Both the position numbers and the translations under genes were made by a program. Below are positions 3,309-63,317 of a stretch of 64,000 nt of DNA, piece by piece. The notes below the pieces were generated by a model. That model did no database searches and was not told where the DNA came from. It worked only from the letters and a program-made list of their open reading frames with translations. The stretch's first letter is position 1. Each line of letters begins with the position of its first letter. The stretch covers positions 1 to 64,000 of the forward strand of contig JAMFSR010000003.1 in assembly GCA_026225395.1 (NCBI GenBank), in the 5' to 3' direction. Source of the DNA: Granulicella sapmiensis. GTDB taxonomy: Bacteria; Acidobacteriota; Terriglobia; Terriglobales; Acidobacteriaceae.

Positions 3309-3655
3309 GCGCGGGCTCCGGCGGTGCGGCCCGTCAGCGGTTTCACGCCCTTGCGGCGGGCGAAGGCCGCGGCTTGTTCGAGGCGGGCGGTTTCGGCGGC
3401 GAGAGTTTGACGGCCTGAGGGGGTGAGGCGGTAGTAGCGGCGGCGTTCATCGTCGGTGAGGCCGGTTTCTTCGACCAGGCCCGCGGTAAGAAGACGGTCC
3501 AGCGAACCGTATAGCGTACCCGGACCCATCGGCGTGTGCTCGCGAGCCTCCTGCATGATGGCGTAACCGTGCTTCTCGCCGTCAGCCAGTGCCAGCAGGA
3601 TAGCGAAGACGGCTGGTGTGAGAGGGATGTGGTCTTTGAGGATGGAAGCGGCCAT
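3305..3655 (-). CDS. PadR family transcriptional regulator
   Basis: A 116-residue winged-helix repressor. The PadR domain spans about residues 8-90 and includes ILLALADGEKHGYAIMQE, the recognition helix region GPGTLYGSLDRLL, and the wing DDERRRYYRLT. It is the first gene of a two-gene operon with the membrane protein at 2520-3308. The promoter in front of it lies inside a near-perfect palindrome, so it is probably autoregulated. The predicted transcription start falls at or within two bases of the ATG at 3655. Confidence 0.9.
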   Translation of the reverse strand: MAASILKDHIPLTPAVFAILLALADGEKHGYAIMQEAREHTPMGPGTLYGSLDRLLTAGLVEETGLTDDERRRYYRLTPSGRQTLAAETARLEQAAAFARRKGVKPLTGRTAGARA

Positions 3656-39565: not shown

Positions 39566-40825
39566 CTAAGGCTTTTCGATCGTTGCCTCAATCGCCGGTG
39601 TACCCTTTAGCGCCGCCGCACGTTGCTCGACCGCGCGCATCACGCGCAACAGGTTTCCGCCGTAAATCTTCTTGATGTCCTCCGCGGAGTAACCCTTTTC
39701 CAGCAGAGCCCGCGTCAGTGCCGGGAACTTGTCGTAGCTGCTCAGTTCCGTGGGGACGCAGCCTACGCCGTCGAAGTCGGTGCCGATACCTACGTGGTCG
39801 ATGCCACCGATCTTGACGGCGTGGTCAATCTGAGCGACGACTTCGGCGAGCGTAGCGGGCGGGAGTTTGGCGGCGGACTCCATGTAAATCTTCTCCATGG
39901 CAGCGTCACGTTCGGCGGGGTCGGCGATCTTGCGGGCCTCCTGCATCTTTGGGCGCATCTCAGCCTGCAAGGGCTTGGAGGCGTCTTCGTAGCGTTGCGA
40001 GAGGTAGGCGCAATCGAAGTTGATCTGCATGGTGCCACCGTTGGCGGCAAGCGCGCGAATCATGTCGTCGGTCATGTTGCGTGTGTTGGCGGATACAGCC
40101 CGGCACGAAGAGTGCGACGCAATGATTGGAGCCGAAGACGCCTTGATCGCCGCATAGAACGTATCGTCGGCCGTGTGCGAAATGTCGACCATCATGCCGA
40201 GCCGGTTCATCTCATGTACGACGTCCACGCCGAACGGCGTCAGGCCGCCATGGTGCGTCACCTTGGTGTCGGTGATGTCACCCTGTGCATCGGCCCAGTT
40301 ATTGGTGTTGAAGTGCGTCAGCGTCATGTAGCGAATGCCCAGCGCATAGTAGTCACGCAGCAGCCGTAGCGAGTCTTCAATCGCATGGCCGCCTTCAATA
40401 CCCATCAACGCGGCGATCTTGTGGTCCTTATGCGCCTTCTCTATATCGGCCGCGGTCGTCGCGAACTCAAAATCATTTGGGTGTGCTGCGATCACATCGG
40501 TCTTCACCGTGTCGATCATCTGCAGCGTGCGGTTCGCCGAGTGGTTCCCATTCACATACTCCGCCGAAACAAACACCGCAAAGAACTCCGCACCCAGAAA
40601 GCCCTTCATGCGCGGAAGATCCGTCTGCCCACGCTTGTTCGGCGTAGCAATGTCGTAGCCGTCGACGGTTTTTGAAGGCACGTCGTCATGTGTGTCGATC
40701 AGGATGGCCTCGCGCGTAATCTTGTCTACCTCGGCCTGCGTCACGGGTTTCGTGTGTGAAGTCTGGGCGGCCAGAGGAAGGGCGATAAGGCAAAGAACAG
40801 CAGTGTTGCGGAGAGCGTTTGTCAT
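39566..40825 (-). CDS. Secreted membrane dipeptidase family M19
   Basis: A 419-residue metallopeptidase with a signal peptide (ALPLAAQ). The start at 40825 is chosen because the upstream extension is not conserved. Zinc ligands are the pattern LIDTHDD near the start, MGIEGGHAI, VDISHTADD and PIIASHSSCRA. It hydrolyses dipeptides, possibly also D-amino-acid dipeptides or beta-lactams. Confidence 0.93.
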   Translation of the reverse strand: MTNALRNTAVLCLIALPLAAQTSHTKPVTQAEVDKITREAILIDTHDDVPSKTVDGYDIATPNKRGQTDLPRMKGFLGAEFFAVFVSAEYVNGNHSANRTLQMIDTVKTDVIAAHPNDFEFATTAADIEKAHKDHKIAALMGIEGGHAIEDSLRLLRDYYALGIRYMTLTHFNTNNWADAQGDITDTKVTHHGGLTPFGVDVVHEMNRLGMMVDISHTADDTFYAAIKASSAPIIASHSSCRAVSANTRNMTDDMIRALAANGGTMQINFDCAYLSQRYEDASKPLQAEMRPKMQEARKIADPAERDAAMEKIYMESAAKLPPATLAEVVAQIDHAVKIGGIDHVGIGTDFDGVGCVPTELSSYDKFPALTRALLEKGYSAEDIKKIYGGNLLRVMRAVEQRAAALKGTPAIEATIEKP

Positions 40826-59322: not shown

Positions 59323-60207
59323 CTACCGCAACCCCCGCAGACTCTCCACCGAAGGCACAAAGTAATACGACCCCGTCAGGGGCTCCGTATACCGTGTCAA
59401 CGCATCGCGCTTCCCGTTCACCAACCCCGCCATGCTATCGAGCATCTTCGAAAGCCGCTTCTGCTCCGCGCTAAATCCCACAAACACAGTCCCATGATCG
59501 TCGACGTTTCCATAGGGCATATTCCGTCGGAAGATGTTCCCAAACTCGTCCTGGTCCGTGCGCGCCACATGCGAGTCCTCGGGCTTATCCTCCAACTCCA
59601 CGCTGTCCGCCTTCGTCCTTCCCATGATCAACTCCTGCTTCTCCACCGGCAGCGCTTCCCACTCCGCCGTCCTGTGCTTCCATTTCTGCAGTAGCAGCAC
59701 GGACCCCGCAGCTCCCGGCCCACCCTCCGGCACCAGCGCATCTGTGGGAGCATCCAGCAGCGTCGGATTCTCCGACCCATCCACGAACCCCGTCAAATCT
59801 CGGTCATGCCGGTAAGGCCAGCTCGAAGTCTCTTCCCCCAGCTTTGCCGTCGCCGCCAGGTCATGCAGCACGGACCGCGCCATATCGAACACCACGTCAT
59901 ACGCACTGCCTGACATCCACACCAGCGCATCATGCTGCGTGGCCGGCATCACAAATCCCTCCACACCCTCAATGCTCTTGTTGAATCCCTCCACGCCTAC
60001 CGGCATATCTCCCGGAACAATCTCCCCCCACAGCTCCGGCCGAAACCCGATCACAAAGTTCACGCCGCCCGTCGTAGTCCGCGGCTCACGGATCGCGGAG
60101 ATGGCCGAAGCAAACTCCTTGCATTTACTTGCATCCAGCAGATCAAACTCCAGATACACATGCGACGAAGTTCCAAGAGCAAAAATTCCAGCCTGAGGCG
60201 TATACAT
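59323..60207 (-). CDS. Dyp-type heme peroxidase
   Basis: A 294-residue dye-decolorising peroxidase. The GxxDG motif reads GFVDGSENP near 140. The proximal heme His is likely in SHVARTDQDEFGNIFRRNMPYGN near 220, as in YfeX. No Tat or signal peptide is visible, so it is cytoplasmic or encapsulated. It is divergent from the MarR/S41 gene. Confidence 0.93.
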   Translation of the reverse strand: MYTPQAGIFALGTSSHVYLEFDLLDASKCKEFASAISAIREPRTTTGGVNFVIGFRPELWGEIVPGDMPVGVEGFNKSIEGVEGFVMPATQHDALVWMSGSAYDVVFDMARSVLHDLAATAKLGEETSSWPYRHDRDLTGFVDGSENPTLLDAPTDALVPEGGPGAAGSVLLLQKWKHRTAEWEALPVEKQELIMGRTKADSVELEDKPEDSHVARTDQDEFGNIFRRNMPYGNVDDHGTVFVGFSAEQKRLSKMLDSMAGLVNGKRDALTRYTEPLTGSYYFVPSVESLRGLR

Positions 60208-60338
60208 GCGGAAATTATATCGAGCGCTGCCTTAGCCAACGCAACTGGCTTGAGCGCTCTGCCACATTCCCATAGGACACCTCTTATTACCGCTGCAGCG
60301 GTTCAGTCAGCCAATTATGTGATCCAAAGATTCACATC

Positions 60339-60363
60339 TAACAGTGCTGTTATATTTACAGTG
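60339..60363. promoter_or_regulatory. Inverted and direct repeats before the MarR/S41 gene
   Basis: TAACAG-TG-CTGTTA (60339-60352) is a perfect inverted repeat. ACAGTG at 60341-60346 is repeated at 60358-60363, 17 bases apart, ending just before the ATG at 60365. The site lies in the divergent space shared with the Dyp peroxidase gene and may be bound by the MarR domain. Confidence 0.45.
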
Positions 60364-60364
60364 T

Positions 60365-62149
60365 ATGCCTTCGAATCGCACTCTCGGAACATTGCTTCGT
60401 CATCTCATTGAGCACCTCGACGACGCTGTCGAACATCGTTATCGTGCGGCCGGATTCGGCTACAAACCGCGGTACACGCCTGTCGTTCGCGCGCTTCTGG
60501 ATCTGCATGAGGCGTCGCTGCGTCAGATTGCGCACCACGCTCAAATCACTCACTCCGCTGTAAGCCAAACCATCGCCCAGATGGGAGACTCCGGCCTTGT
60601 GGAGACGGTGCAGGGTACCGACGCACGCCAACATGTTGTGCGTCTGACCTCGAAGGCTAATCGCATGGTGCCTGAGCTGCGCAGCATCTGGCTTGCGACC
60701 AACACCGCTGCCGATCGGCTCGATACGGAGCTCCCATACTCCCTGTCCTCGCTCCTTGCCGACACGATTTCCACGTTGGAGAAGCGCTCTTTTGAAGAGC
60801 GCATCCGCAGTGAACAAGAGCAGCTTCAAAACCCCGAGGAAATCCACGTGAAGCATTCAAAACACCCCTCCCGCAAACGGCTCTCCGCAAAGCCCGCGAT
60901 CCGAAGCATTCTTCTCACGCTTACCGCTTATGCGGCGATTCATGCTGCGTGTCTGGGACAGAACACCAGTCCCACGCCTATGCTCGATGCGGCTACCCGC
61001 CGTGCCGTGGTTCAGCAGATGGAGGCTGATATCAACAGCACCTATGTCTTTCGGGAGATGCGTCCCGCTCTTGTCTCGATGTTGGAGCAGGCATTCAAGG
61101 CAGGCCGTTATGACGTCAGCGATCCGAATATCTTTGCGGAAAAGGTAACAGAGGATCTGGAGGCGGCAAGCCATGATGGGCATCTGTATCTCAATAGCGA
61201 TCCCGAGCAGTACGCAGCCACCATTGCTCCGCCTCGCAGTGATGTCGGCCTGGACGCCTATCGCAGGCGGCTTGCTATCCGGACGCACAGCGGCTTGACG
61301 AAGCTCGAGATTCTGCCCGGGAATCTCCGCTACCTTCAGGTCGAAGCATTCCATTGGACACCCGTACTCACGCCCGCAGCGTACGATGACGCGTTGAAAT
61401 TTTTAAGCGATGGCGACGCGCTCATCCTGGACCTTCGGGAAAATGGCGGTGGCAACAGCGATGCTGTGGACTATCTGGCCAGGTTGCTCCGTCCCCTGGC
61501 AAAGCGCAAGCCTCTCTACATCCTCGTCGATGCCCATGTCGCTTCCGCGGCAGAGGCCATTTCGTATGGATTCCAACAGGAAAAGCTGGCGACCATCGTA
61601 GGCGGCACCACCTATGGGGCGGCAAACAACAACAAGAAGCTTCCCATCGCCCCACAATTCATCTTGAGCGTGTCGTACAACAGGCCCGTCAATCCCATCA
61701 GCGGGACGAACTGGGAAGGTGTAGGCGTCGTTCCAGACCTCAAGGTGCCGTCCACGCAAGCGCTTGCCGCCGCGGAACTCGACGCATATCGTCGCTTACG
61801 TTCAACTCCCGGCCTCGCCGCTGAGCGAGCGGCGGAGTACACATGGGCAGCCGTAGCTACTGACGCGCAGTTGCATCCGGTTGTCATCGCAGCAACTCAT
61901 CTGCAAACACTCGCGGGAGACTATGGCACGATCTCTGTCCGTTACGCGGACGGCGCATTGCGGTTAAATCGCTCGGATCGCCCTAAGTGGCAGAAGAACC
62001 TCCTTCTCGCGCCATTAAGTGCGGATGACACCTTCCAGGTCGAGGGTTCCGAGGATCTTCGTCTACGGTTCACAAAGAGTGGTCTCGATTTGCTTCATGG
62101 CAGCGAAGACGAACGCGAACCCTTCACGCGCTCAACGGTTCAACGTTAG
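60365..62149 (+). CDS. MarR domain fused through a membrane segment to an S41 peptidase domain
   Basis: A 594-residue single frame. Residues about 6-153 form a MarR winged helix (IAHHAQITHSAVSQTIAQMGDSGLVETV, then GTDARQHVVRLT). About 180-198 is one hydrophobic segment after a basic stretch (HSKHPSRKRLSAKP). About 205-480 is an S41/IRBP-like domain: DALILDLRENGGG and the nucleophile Ser394 in HVASAAEAISYGF, then GGTTYGAANNN. An in-frame GTG at 60848 could start the S41 half separately with a signal peptide. GTG at 60344 is an alternative start. Confidence 0.85.
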   Translation: MPSNRTLGTLLRHLIEHLDDAVEHRYRAAGFGYKPRYTPVVRALLDLHEASLRQIAHHAQITHSAVSQTIAQMGDSGLVETVQGTDARQHVVRLTSKANRMVPELRSIWLATNTAADRLDTELPYSLSSLLADTISTLEKRSFEERIRSEQEQLQNPEEIHVKHSKHPSRKRLSAKPAIRSILLTLTAYAAIHAACLGQNTSPTPMLDAATRRAVVQQMEADINSTYVFREMRPALVSMLEQAFKAGRYDVSDPNIFAEKVTEDLEAASHDGHLYLNSDPEQYAATIAPPRSDVGLDAYRRRLAIRTHSGLTKLEILPGNLRYLQVEAFHWTPVLTPAAYDDALKFLSDGDALILDLRENGGGNSDAVDYLARLLRPLAKRKPLYILVDAHVASAAEAISYGFQQEKLATIVGGTTYGAANNNKKLPIAPQFILSVSYNRPVNPISGTNWEGVGVVPDLKVPSTQALAAAELDAYRRLRSTPGLAAERAAEYTWAAVATDAQLHPVVIAATHLQTLAGDYGTISVRYADGALRLNRSDRPKWQKNLLLAPLSADDTFQVEGSEDLRLRFTKSGLDLLHGSEDEREPFTRSTVQR

Positions 62150-62294
62150 TAGAAATCCTGAAAAGAAGATTTCTCCCCAGCCGGGTATCCATGTTCCTCG
62201 CCTTCGTCCTTGACCCCTAAAGCGTCGCAGGGAAGGATCTCCGTATTTCCCGGCGGTCATGCAACCGTCATCTTCACTAGGTATCATCGCTTCC

Positions 62295-63317
62295 ATGCGA
62301 TCCTCGACGCTCCCCATGCTCTTCGCTTCCTGCGCGGCCATCCTTCTCGCCGGCCCCTCGCTCCTCGCGCAGTCCGACGGTCCCTACAAGATCACCCACA
62401 CCAGCGTCCTCGGCGGCGAAGGCGGCTGGGACTACGTCGTCCCCGACCCCACCACGCACCGCATCTTTATCGCCCGCGGCACGCACCTCATGGTCGTCGA
62501 TGAAGACTCCGGCAAGCTCATCGGCCAGGTCGACGACATCCACGGCGCCCACGGCACCGCCATCGCCCCCAACTACGGTTTCGCCTCTTCCGCGCAGGAC
62601 AAGACCGTCGCCATGTTCGACCTCAAGACCCTCAAGGTCATCAGCCGCTCCCCGGCCCAGGAAGACACCGACGCCGCCCTCTACGACGCCCCTTCCAACC
62701 GCGTCTTCACCATGAACGGCGACGCCGCATCCGCCACCGTCGTTGACGCGGCCACCGGAAAGACCATCACCAACATCCCCCTCGGCGGCAAGCCCGAGTA
62801 CGCCGTCTCCGCCGGCGACGGCAAAGTCTACGCCGACATCGCCGACAAGGACGAAATCGTCGAAGTCGACGCCCGCAAAGCTACCGTCCTCCGCCGCTGG
62901 CCCACCGCCCCCTGCAAGCAGCCCACGTCGCTCACCATCGACTCCGCCCACCACCGCCTTTTCACCGGCTGCCGCAGCGGCGTCCTCGCCGTTTCCGACA
63001 CTACTACCGGCAAGGTCATCACTACCGTCCCCATCGGCAAAGGCGTCGACGCCTCCGGCTTCGATCCCTCCACCGGCGACATCTTCTCCTCCTGCGGCGA
63101 CGGCACACTGACCATCATCCACGAGGACACCCCCGACCAGTACCACGTCCTCCAGACCCTCGCCACGCCGATCGGCTCCCGCAACCTCGGCGTCGATCCC
63201 TCAACCCACAAAATCTTCGTAGTCGCCGCCGACTTCGGCCCCATCCCTGCCGGTGGACGCAGAGGTCCCGTCCTCCCCGGCTCTTTCAAACTCCTCACCA
63301 TCGAACGCCAGCCCTGA
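62295..63317 (+). CDS. Secreted beta-propeller protein (YncE-like)
   Basis: A 340-residue protein with a signal peptide (PSLLAQ). Repeated blocks such as HGTAIAPNYGFASSAQDKTVAMFDLKTLKVI and SLTIDSAHHRLFTGC give a seven-bladed YVTN-type propeller. The ligand is unknown. The gene is convergent with the CDO-rhodanese gene. Confidence 0.85.
   Translation: MRSSTLPMLFASCAAILLAGPSLLAQSDGPYKITHTSVLGGEGGWDYVVPDPTTHRIFIARGTHLMVVDEDSGKLIGQVDDIHGAHGTAIAPNYGFASSAQDKTVAMFDLKTLKVISRSPAQEDTDAALYDAPSNRVFTMNGDAASATVVDAATGKTITNIPLGGKPEYAVSAGDGKVYADIADKDEIVEVDARKATVLRRWPTAPCKQPTSLTIDSAHHRLFTGCRSGVLAVSDTTTGKVITTVPIGKGVDASGFDPSTGDIFSSCGDGTLTIIHEDTPDQYHVLQTLATPIGSRNLGVDPSTHKIFVVAADFGPIPAGGRRGPVLPGSFKLLTIERQP

Follow-up and report, generated by a model that had tools for sequence, protein, structure and literature searches.

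In the transmembrane regulators ToxR, CadC and TcpP, an N-terminal DNA-binding head of the OmpR type is followed by one hydrophobic segment and a periplasmic part. Over a hundred types of DNA-binding domain have been described in transmembrane regulators, and the word MarR is absent from the available portion of the main text of that survey (PMC10269533). For MarR autorepressors, palindromes of 16-20 bp across the -10 and -35 elements are described as typical in the accessible text of PMC5401885, where crtR of Corynebacterium glutamicum is also reported to be leaderless. In vertebrate IRBP, the nucleophile serine is described as lost three times (PMC10450429). No description of a MarR-S41 gene pair was found in the open-access literature, in the text that was available, material returned there on membrane-bound MarR was unrelated, and nothing came up on fusion of neighboring genes.

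A stretch of 64,000 nucleotides from Granulicella sapmiensis (contig JAMFSR010000003.1, hereafter the window) harbors a gene in which a MarR-like and an S41 part share one frame. A single open frame of 594 codons extends on the forward strand from ATG 60365 to TAG 62147-62149 and encodes, within 594 amino acids, a winged helix resembling that of MarR, followed by a short hydrophobic stretch and then by an S41 domain of the IRBP type (Table 1), so that the unbroken frame described in the sequence-only reading was recovered. The mechanical ORF list places the start at GTG 60344, within a palindrome. Among three frames, the fused one scored best in 31 of 32 codon-usage windows, which covered 60365-61354 only, and the lone exception (60845-60904) is located at the junction. 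Since this codon usage is accompanied by relatives of up to 58% identity for the MarR half and 47% for the S41 half, the open frame is more than a product of chance. In this assembly the fused frame does exist, and no other pair that was read has one; the parent two-gene operon is widespread. We regard the locus, at a probability of roughly 0.6, as a lineage-specific in-frame fusion by stop loss of an otherwise separate operon of a MarR autorepressor and an exported IRBP-like S41 protein.

Table 1. Features of the MarR-S41 locus, in positions of the window
Feature	Position	Strand	Remark
Operator-like palindrome TCTAACAGTGCTGTTATA	60337-60354	.	core TAACAGTGCTGTTA at 60339-60352
MarR-like winged-helix part, aa 1-161	60365-60847	+	ATG without Shine-Dalgarno match
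GAGGA, possible weak Shine-Dalgarno	60836-60840	+	7 bases before GTG 60848; 4-base exact match to the consensus used
GTG at the homologous start site of relatives' separate S41 genes	60848-60850	+	
Hydrophobic stretch, aa 179-197	60899-60955	+	signal-peptide-like; preceded by basic residues
IRBP-type S41 domain and C-terminal beta-rich part	60962-62146	+	mean pLDDT of 91.7 in an AF2 model confined to these positions
His 273	61181-61183	+	invariant in 46/46 aligned S41 sequences
S41 shortfall site	61475-61513	+	in frame, just before the nucleophile strand
Ser 394, S41 nucleophile position (VASAAE)	61544-61546	+	invariant in 46/46

From Pfam alone, the assignment of the N-terminal part to the MarR DNA-binding domains, as proposed in the sequence-only reading, would be weak: MarR_2 scored 23.2 bits on the fused protein and 25.8 bits on aa 1-161 alone, both below the cutoff of 27. 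The relatives speak for it, as 62 loci with related MarR genes were obtained and as MarR proteins of relatives passed the cutoff, that of L022 (52% identical to the window's) at 28.9 bits and that of L064 at 29.4 bits. The helix-turn-helix is retained. A single PADLOC match to the winged helix only (E 0.00079) was disregarded as a link to anti-phage functions.

The S41 assignment with its serine nucleophile was borne out. Peptidase_S41 (PF03572) matched at E 2.3e-19 (70 bits, cutoff 24) and the IRBP-type Peptidase_S41_N at E 6.6e-06, where 26.7 bits on the whole protein and 26.5 bits on the S41 part alone lie on either side of the cutoff of 26.6. As well as the invariant residues listed in Table 1, Glu 397 and an Asp-x-Arg-x-Asn-x-Gly-Gly motif are retained in all 46 aligned sequences. 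His 273 and Glu 397 are presumably the companion residues of the nucleophile. Judged from domain score and residues, the protein is an S41 member with nucleophile and companions in place and with putative catalytic activity. In a PDB sequence search IRBP modules came first, and they also led the Foldseek results for models of the S41 parts of the window and L022, followed by other S41 proteins, at modest TM-scores of 0.36-0.48 (query length). The window's domain thus resembles IRBP modules in sequence, fold and its Peptidase_S41_N domain and differs from vertebrate IRBP in being bacterial and in having kept the nucleophile Ser.

At the same time the S41 part departs from its relatives. Beside the active site it falls short of every one of the 45 aligned relatives by 23-32 residues: the span Arg 358 to Ser 394 measures 36 residues instead of 59-68 (commonest 63). 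Two strands occupy the corresponding region in the L022 model (pLDDT 90.8), while the model of the window closes over the gap. Deviations were found at 7 of 50 columns that are conserved in at least 85% of the sequences, and the window's S41 part sits on an end branch of 0.96 (median 0.19), which is among the four flagged as long; its position in the tree is unsure. Each of the two halves is the most diverged of 15 compared. Divergence of both halves, long branch, shortened S41 part and departures at conserved columns together make an early decay of the locus possible.

To place the fusion among its relatives, species genomes were searched in a pattern scan based on an alignment of three MarR parts, which yielded the 62 loci and misses relatives that lack the two patterns. 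A distinct S41 partner was present within about 1.1 kb at 28 of the 62 MarR loci. Two more loci, L051 and L065, agree with L022 and L023 in their tails and upstream sites and were set aside as duplicates. Loci from one Myxococcota family were added (matches at E 1e-40 in 22 of its 96 genomes), so that 103 loci entered the pair count; L002-L021 and L024-L041 were left out. A close MarR-then-S41 gene pair recurs in Acidobacteriota, Pseudomonadota and Myxococcota, and among 46 distinct pairs only that of the window is fused. The search for the same domain order elsewhere, which had been named beforehand as a check on the sequence-only reading, found no second case (0 of 45). Judged by the nearest candidate start, the other 45 pairs comprise six in one frame with a stop retained (L022, L043, L091, L092, L165 and L166), 18 that overlap by four bases, five that overlap by one base and 16 with other spacings; in seven of the 45 the MarR protein is only 28-33% identical to the window's. 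The four-base overlaps that were spelled out (n=15) read ATGA in 12 cases, TTGA in two and GTGA in one. In L022, from genome G646 and the closest pair within the phylum, a TGA closes the MarR gene (1483-1974), and three bases on, without a change of frame, the S41 gene begins at GTG 1978; in L023 (genome G719) the two genes overlap by ATGA. Five pairs were compared with the window directly: L022 from an acidobacterium, L047 from Steroidobacter, L045 from Luteimonas, L046 from Caulobacter and L054 from Hyalangium. They resemble it in gene order, palindrome family and sequence (MarR 48-57%, S41 44-47% identical), and they differ in that they consist of two genes with a stop or an overlap of one or four bases and in that their S41 proteins are 23-27 residues longer between Arg and Ser.

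As the fusion is known from one genome and one assembly, it may be asked whether a miscalled base or an erroneous length within the MarR tail hides a stop that truly separates two genes. The A that follows GTG 60848 creates a TGA in the next frame (60849-60851), so that, with the tail in that frame, GTGA would form an ordinary overlap, and 23 of 45 relatives do overlap by one or four bases; the neighboring-frame tail that ends at this TGA superficially resembles the basic tails of relatives, and runs of AAAA and CCCC are present at 60828-60835. Since this TGA is what an overlapping GTGA start would have, a length change, old or erroneous, is a possible and less likely origin of the frame. Codon usage across the whole MarR tail fits the fused frame instead. 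Using a codon table from 21 long window ORFs, which were picked by length and also served as control, the margin for the fused frame was small (1.7-5.4 bits) and all but disappeared when the frame was switched at 60809 (0.4 bits) or in the two final codons at 60842-60845 (0.7 and -0.4 bits). The margin observed over the last 7, 10, 14 and 20 codons ahead of GTG 60848 was reached in 0.9-2.8% of cases by false-frame windows of the training genes and in 67-94% by their true-frame windows. Up to GTG 60848, codon usage thus mildly favors the fused frame, and a frame shift in the MarR tail was not retained as the main reading. In a check against 1,672 ORFs of relatives, which covered 18.0 kb of homologous window sequence (12.3 kb of it beyond position 40000), four candidate frame breaks were flagged; three of them are antisense to or upstream of an intact helicase-like gene and the remaining one came from L146. 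The covered 18.0 kb are too little for a firm error rate. Furthermore, the six relatives with both genes in one frame and a stop in between demonstrate that a single stop change would suffice in nature too. We therefore hold an error in sequencing or assembly to be unlikely.

A further explanation is that only separate products matter, with the S41 protein made from GTG 60848 and the fused chain being a by-product, or the locus having started to decay. The GTG has retained GAGGA upstream and stands at the homologous start, and the shortened S41 part and its long branch would be in keeping with decay. A strong internal Shine-Dalgarno, expected by eye at this codon, was not borne out: the match comprises four bases only, and an equal one precedes 19% of 447 internal in-frame ATG and GTG codons. 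With the MarR stop absent, there would also be no terminating ribosome to restart, and palindrome, helix-turn-helix and invariant S41 residues have all been retained. That separate products alone account for the locus thus appears quite improbable, although with its weak Shine-Dalgarno kept at GTG 60848 some separate S41 protein may be made.

The single hydrophobic segment noted in the sequence-only reading is present, and it proved to be weak: its best 19-residue Kyte-Doolittle mean is 1.53, with 11 of 45 relatives lower and a median of 1.76, and its best 12-residue hydrophobicity mean is 1.86, with 4 of 45 relatives lower. In position it corresponds to the N-terminal signal region of the relatives' separate S41 proteins, and it would accordingly be described as signal-like but weak. 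No lipobox was seen in this stretch by eye. The fused chain would be built like ToxR, CadC and TcpP, with DNA binding at the N terminus, a single hydrophobic segment and a part in the periplasm; unlike theirs, its segment is signal-peptide-like and its sensor role putative. The earlier proposal of a membrane-bound regulator, taken here to mean a cytoplasmic MarR domain held by an uncleaved signal anchor and a periplasmic S41 sensor whose ligand or substrate changes DNA binding, stands as far as domain order and open frame are concerned, while the sensor role finds no support in conservation, given that none of the other 45 pairs is fused. The topology is possible in one open frame, the residues missing next to the active-site strand could reflect a change of role from enzyme to sensor, and such regulators are reported, in the accessible part of the survey, to be somewhat enriched in Acidobacteriae (PMC10269533). 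Against this stand the weak stretch, its location at the signal-region position of relatives, the lack of a second fused case among 46 pairs and the retention of the nucleophile and the other invariant residues. We consider such a regulator unlikely, although a ToxR-like topology would be possible in this one genome if the signal were left uncleaved. More improbable still is a fixed functional fusion in which the S41 domain, having lost a hairpin next to its active site, would report a periplasmic ligand to a tethered MarR domain that acts on its own promoter only. A chain that is read on and processed at an internal signal is more likely than a ToxR-like sensor.

Upstream of the gene, ten bases separate the palindrome from ATG 60365. 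Its core pattern TAACAGNNCTGTTA has a single exact occurrence in the genome of 4.98 Mb, and with up to two mismatches the window contains one match, the site itself with zero mismatches, where 0.62 are expected. One match is what chance allows, and the strength of the palindrome therefore lies in its conservation. Sites of the palindrome family (at most 3 of 16 mismatches) were found in 52 of 63 upstream regions, that of the window included, as compared to 0.04% of 2,520 shuffled regions, a figure that is a guide only because the family was drawn from the same loci. Among L042-L103, which come from several phyla, the family upstream of the MarR starts has the halves TATAACAG/CTGTTATA and TGTATAAG/CTTATACA. 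Site and start stand 8 bases apart in 29 of the 51 scored loci and 7-10 bases apart in 40 of them, loci with more than three mismatches being left out. Of the mechanically picked MarR starts, 60 of 64 (two duplicates among the loci) have a Shine-Dalgarno match of 0 or 3 bases. A sigma-70 scan of 60200-62300 scored no promoter. This spacing of 7-10 bases in 40 of 51 loci is best explained by an autorepressed operon that is perhaps leaderless. A palindrome over the -10 with a start just after it would fit such a gene, and the layout of the MarR subfamily is perhaps that of a conserved, leaderless autorepressor. The locus resembles CrtR-type autorepressors in carrying a palindrome near the start of the gene, with binding and dimerisation predicted here. 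It differs from them in that CrtR binding is described with a TTAA motif, unlike TAACAGNNCTGTTA, and in that crtR is divergent to the carotenoid genes, unlike the MarR-S41 order (accessible text of PMC5401885).

Under the reading that we favor, fusion by stop loss, the repressor would bind the palindrome over its own promoter and repress itself, and transcription would probably begin at ATG 60365 or immediately beside it, giving an mRNA with no leader or almost none. Ribosomes that reach the MarR stop could, in many relatives, restart at the S41 start that overlaps it. The window lacks this stop and ribosomes would read on, so that the locus is probably made as one chain whose S41 signal, now internal, would thread the S41 part through the membrane and export it. 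Cleavage there by signal peptidase, if any, would leave a MarR protein that keeps a stub in the membrane, and an S41 protein free in the periplasm; for that reason the fusion may be nearly silent. If real, the fused chain would be a natural snapshot of a repressor and a neighboring exported protein merging by stop loss, and regulators of the ToxR kind could conceivably arise in this way. Of possibly greater weight is the broader result, a multi-phylum MarR subfamily whose common palindrome keeps an almost constant distance from starts that mostly have no ribosome-binding site, and which often adjoins a hydrolase, most often an IRBP-like S41 protein.

To follow the distribution of the locus, the whole protein and its parts were searched against sets of genomes. 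Of 61 genomes including its own, three matched the whole protein at E 1e-10, and both halves were found only in its own. In the family, with the parts searched separately, the MarR part was detected in 2 of 398 genomes (E 1e-6) and the S41 part in 15 of 398 (E 1e-20), its own included in both counts. No MarR-S41 pair was present in the 27 other genomes of the genus within the set of 61, where G010 has a distant S41 match only. Within the phylum 52 of 396 genomes matched, its own included; strong matches to the MarR part, among the matches listed, came besides its own from G646 and G719, and of the 77 genomes in the family of G646 only G646 matched at E 1e-40. In a plasmid collection 38 records matched, none of which spans 80% of the query, and among the 20 of these 38 matches listed all begin at residue 141 or later. 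The divergent gene that adjoins the operon (59323-60207, reverse strand), whose product we take by eye to be DyP-peroxidase-like, has 83-85% protein identity to stretches of three genomes of the genus, and no MarR-S41 gene was found beside the peroxidase-like gene in these three. A simple reading of this distribution would be that the MarR-S41 locus was acquired from elsewhere.

Other partners were observed beside the same MarR subfamily. These are an Rce1-like CAAX protease in Xanthomonas (L060, 3488-4414), a beta-lactamase-family serine hydrolase in Stakelama (L055, 3447-5045), a divergent alpha/beta hydrolase in Streptomyces (L083, 1944-2903, reverse strand) and an MFS transporter in Ornithinimicrobium (L102, 3522-4784). 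In L101, a palindrome-like half TATATAACAGCA is located after the MarR stop at about 3499-3522, ahead of BNR-repeat-like and S41 genes, and these downstream genes may have an operator of their own.
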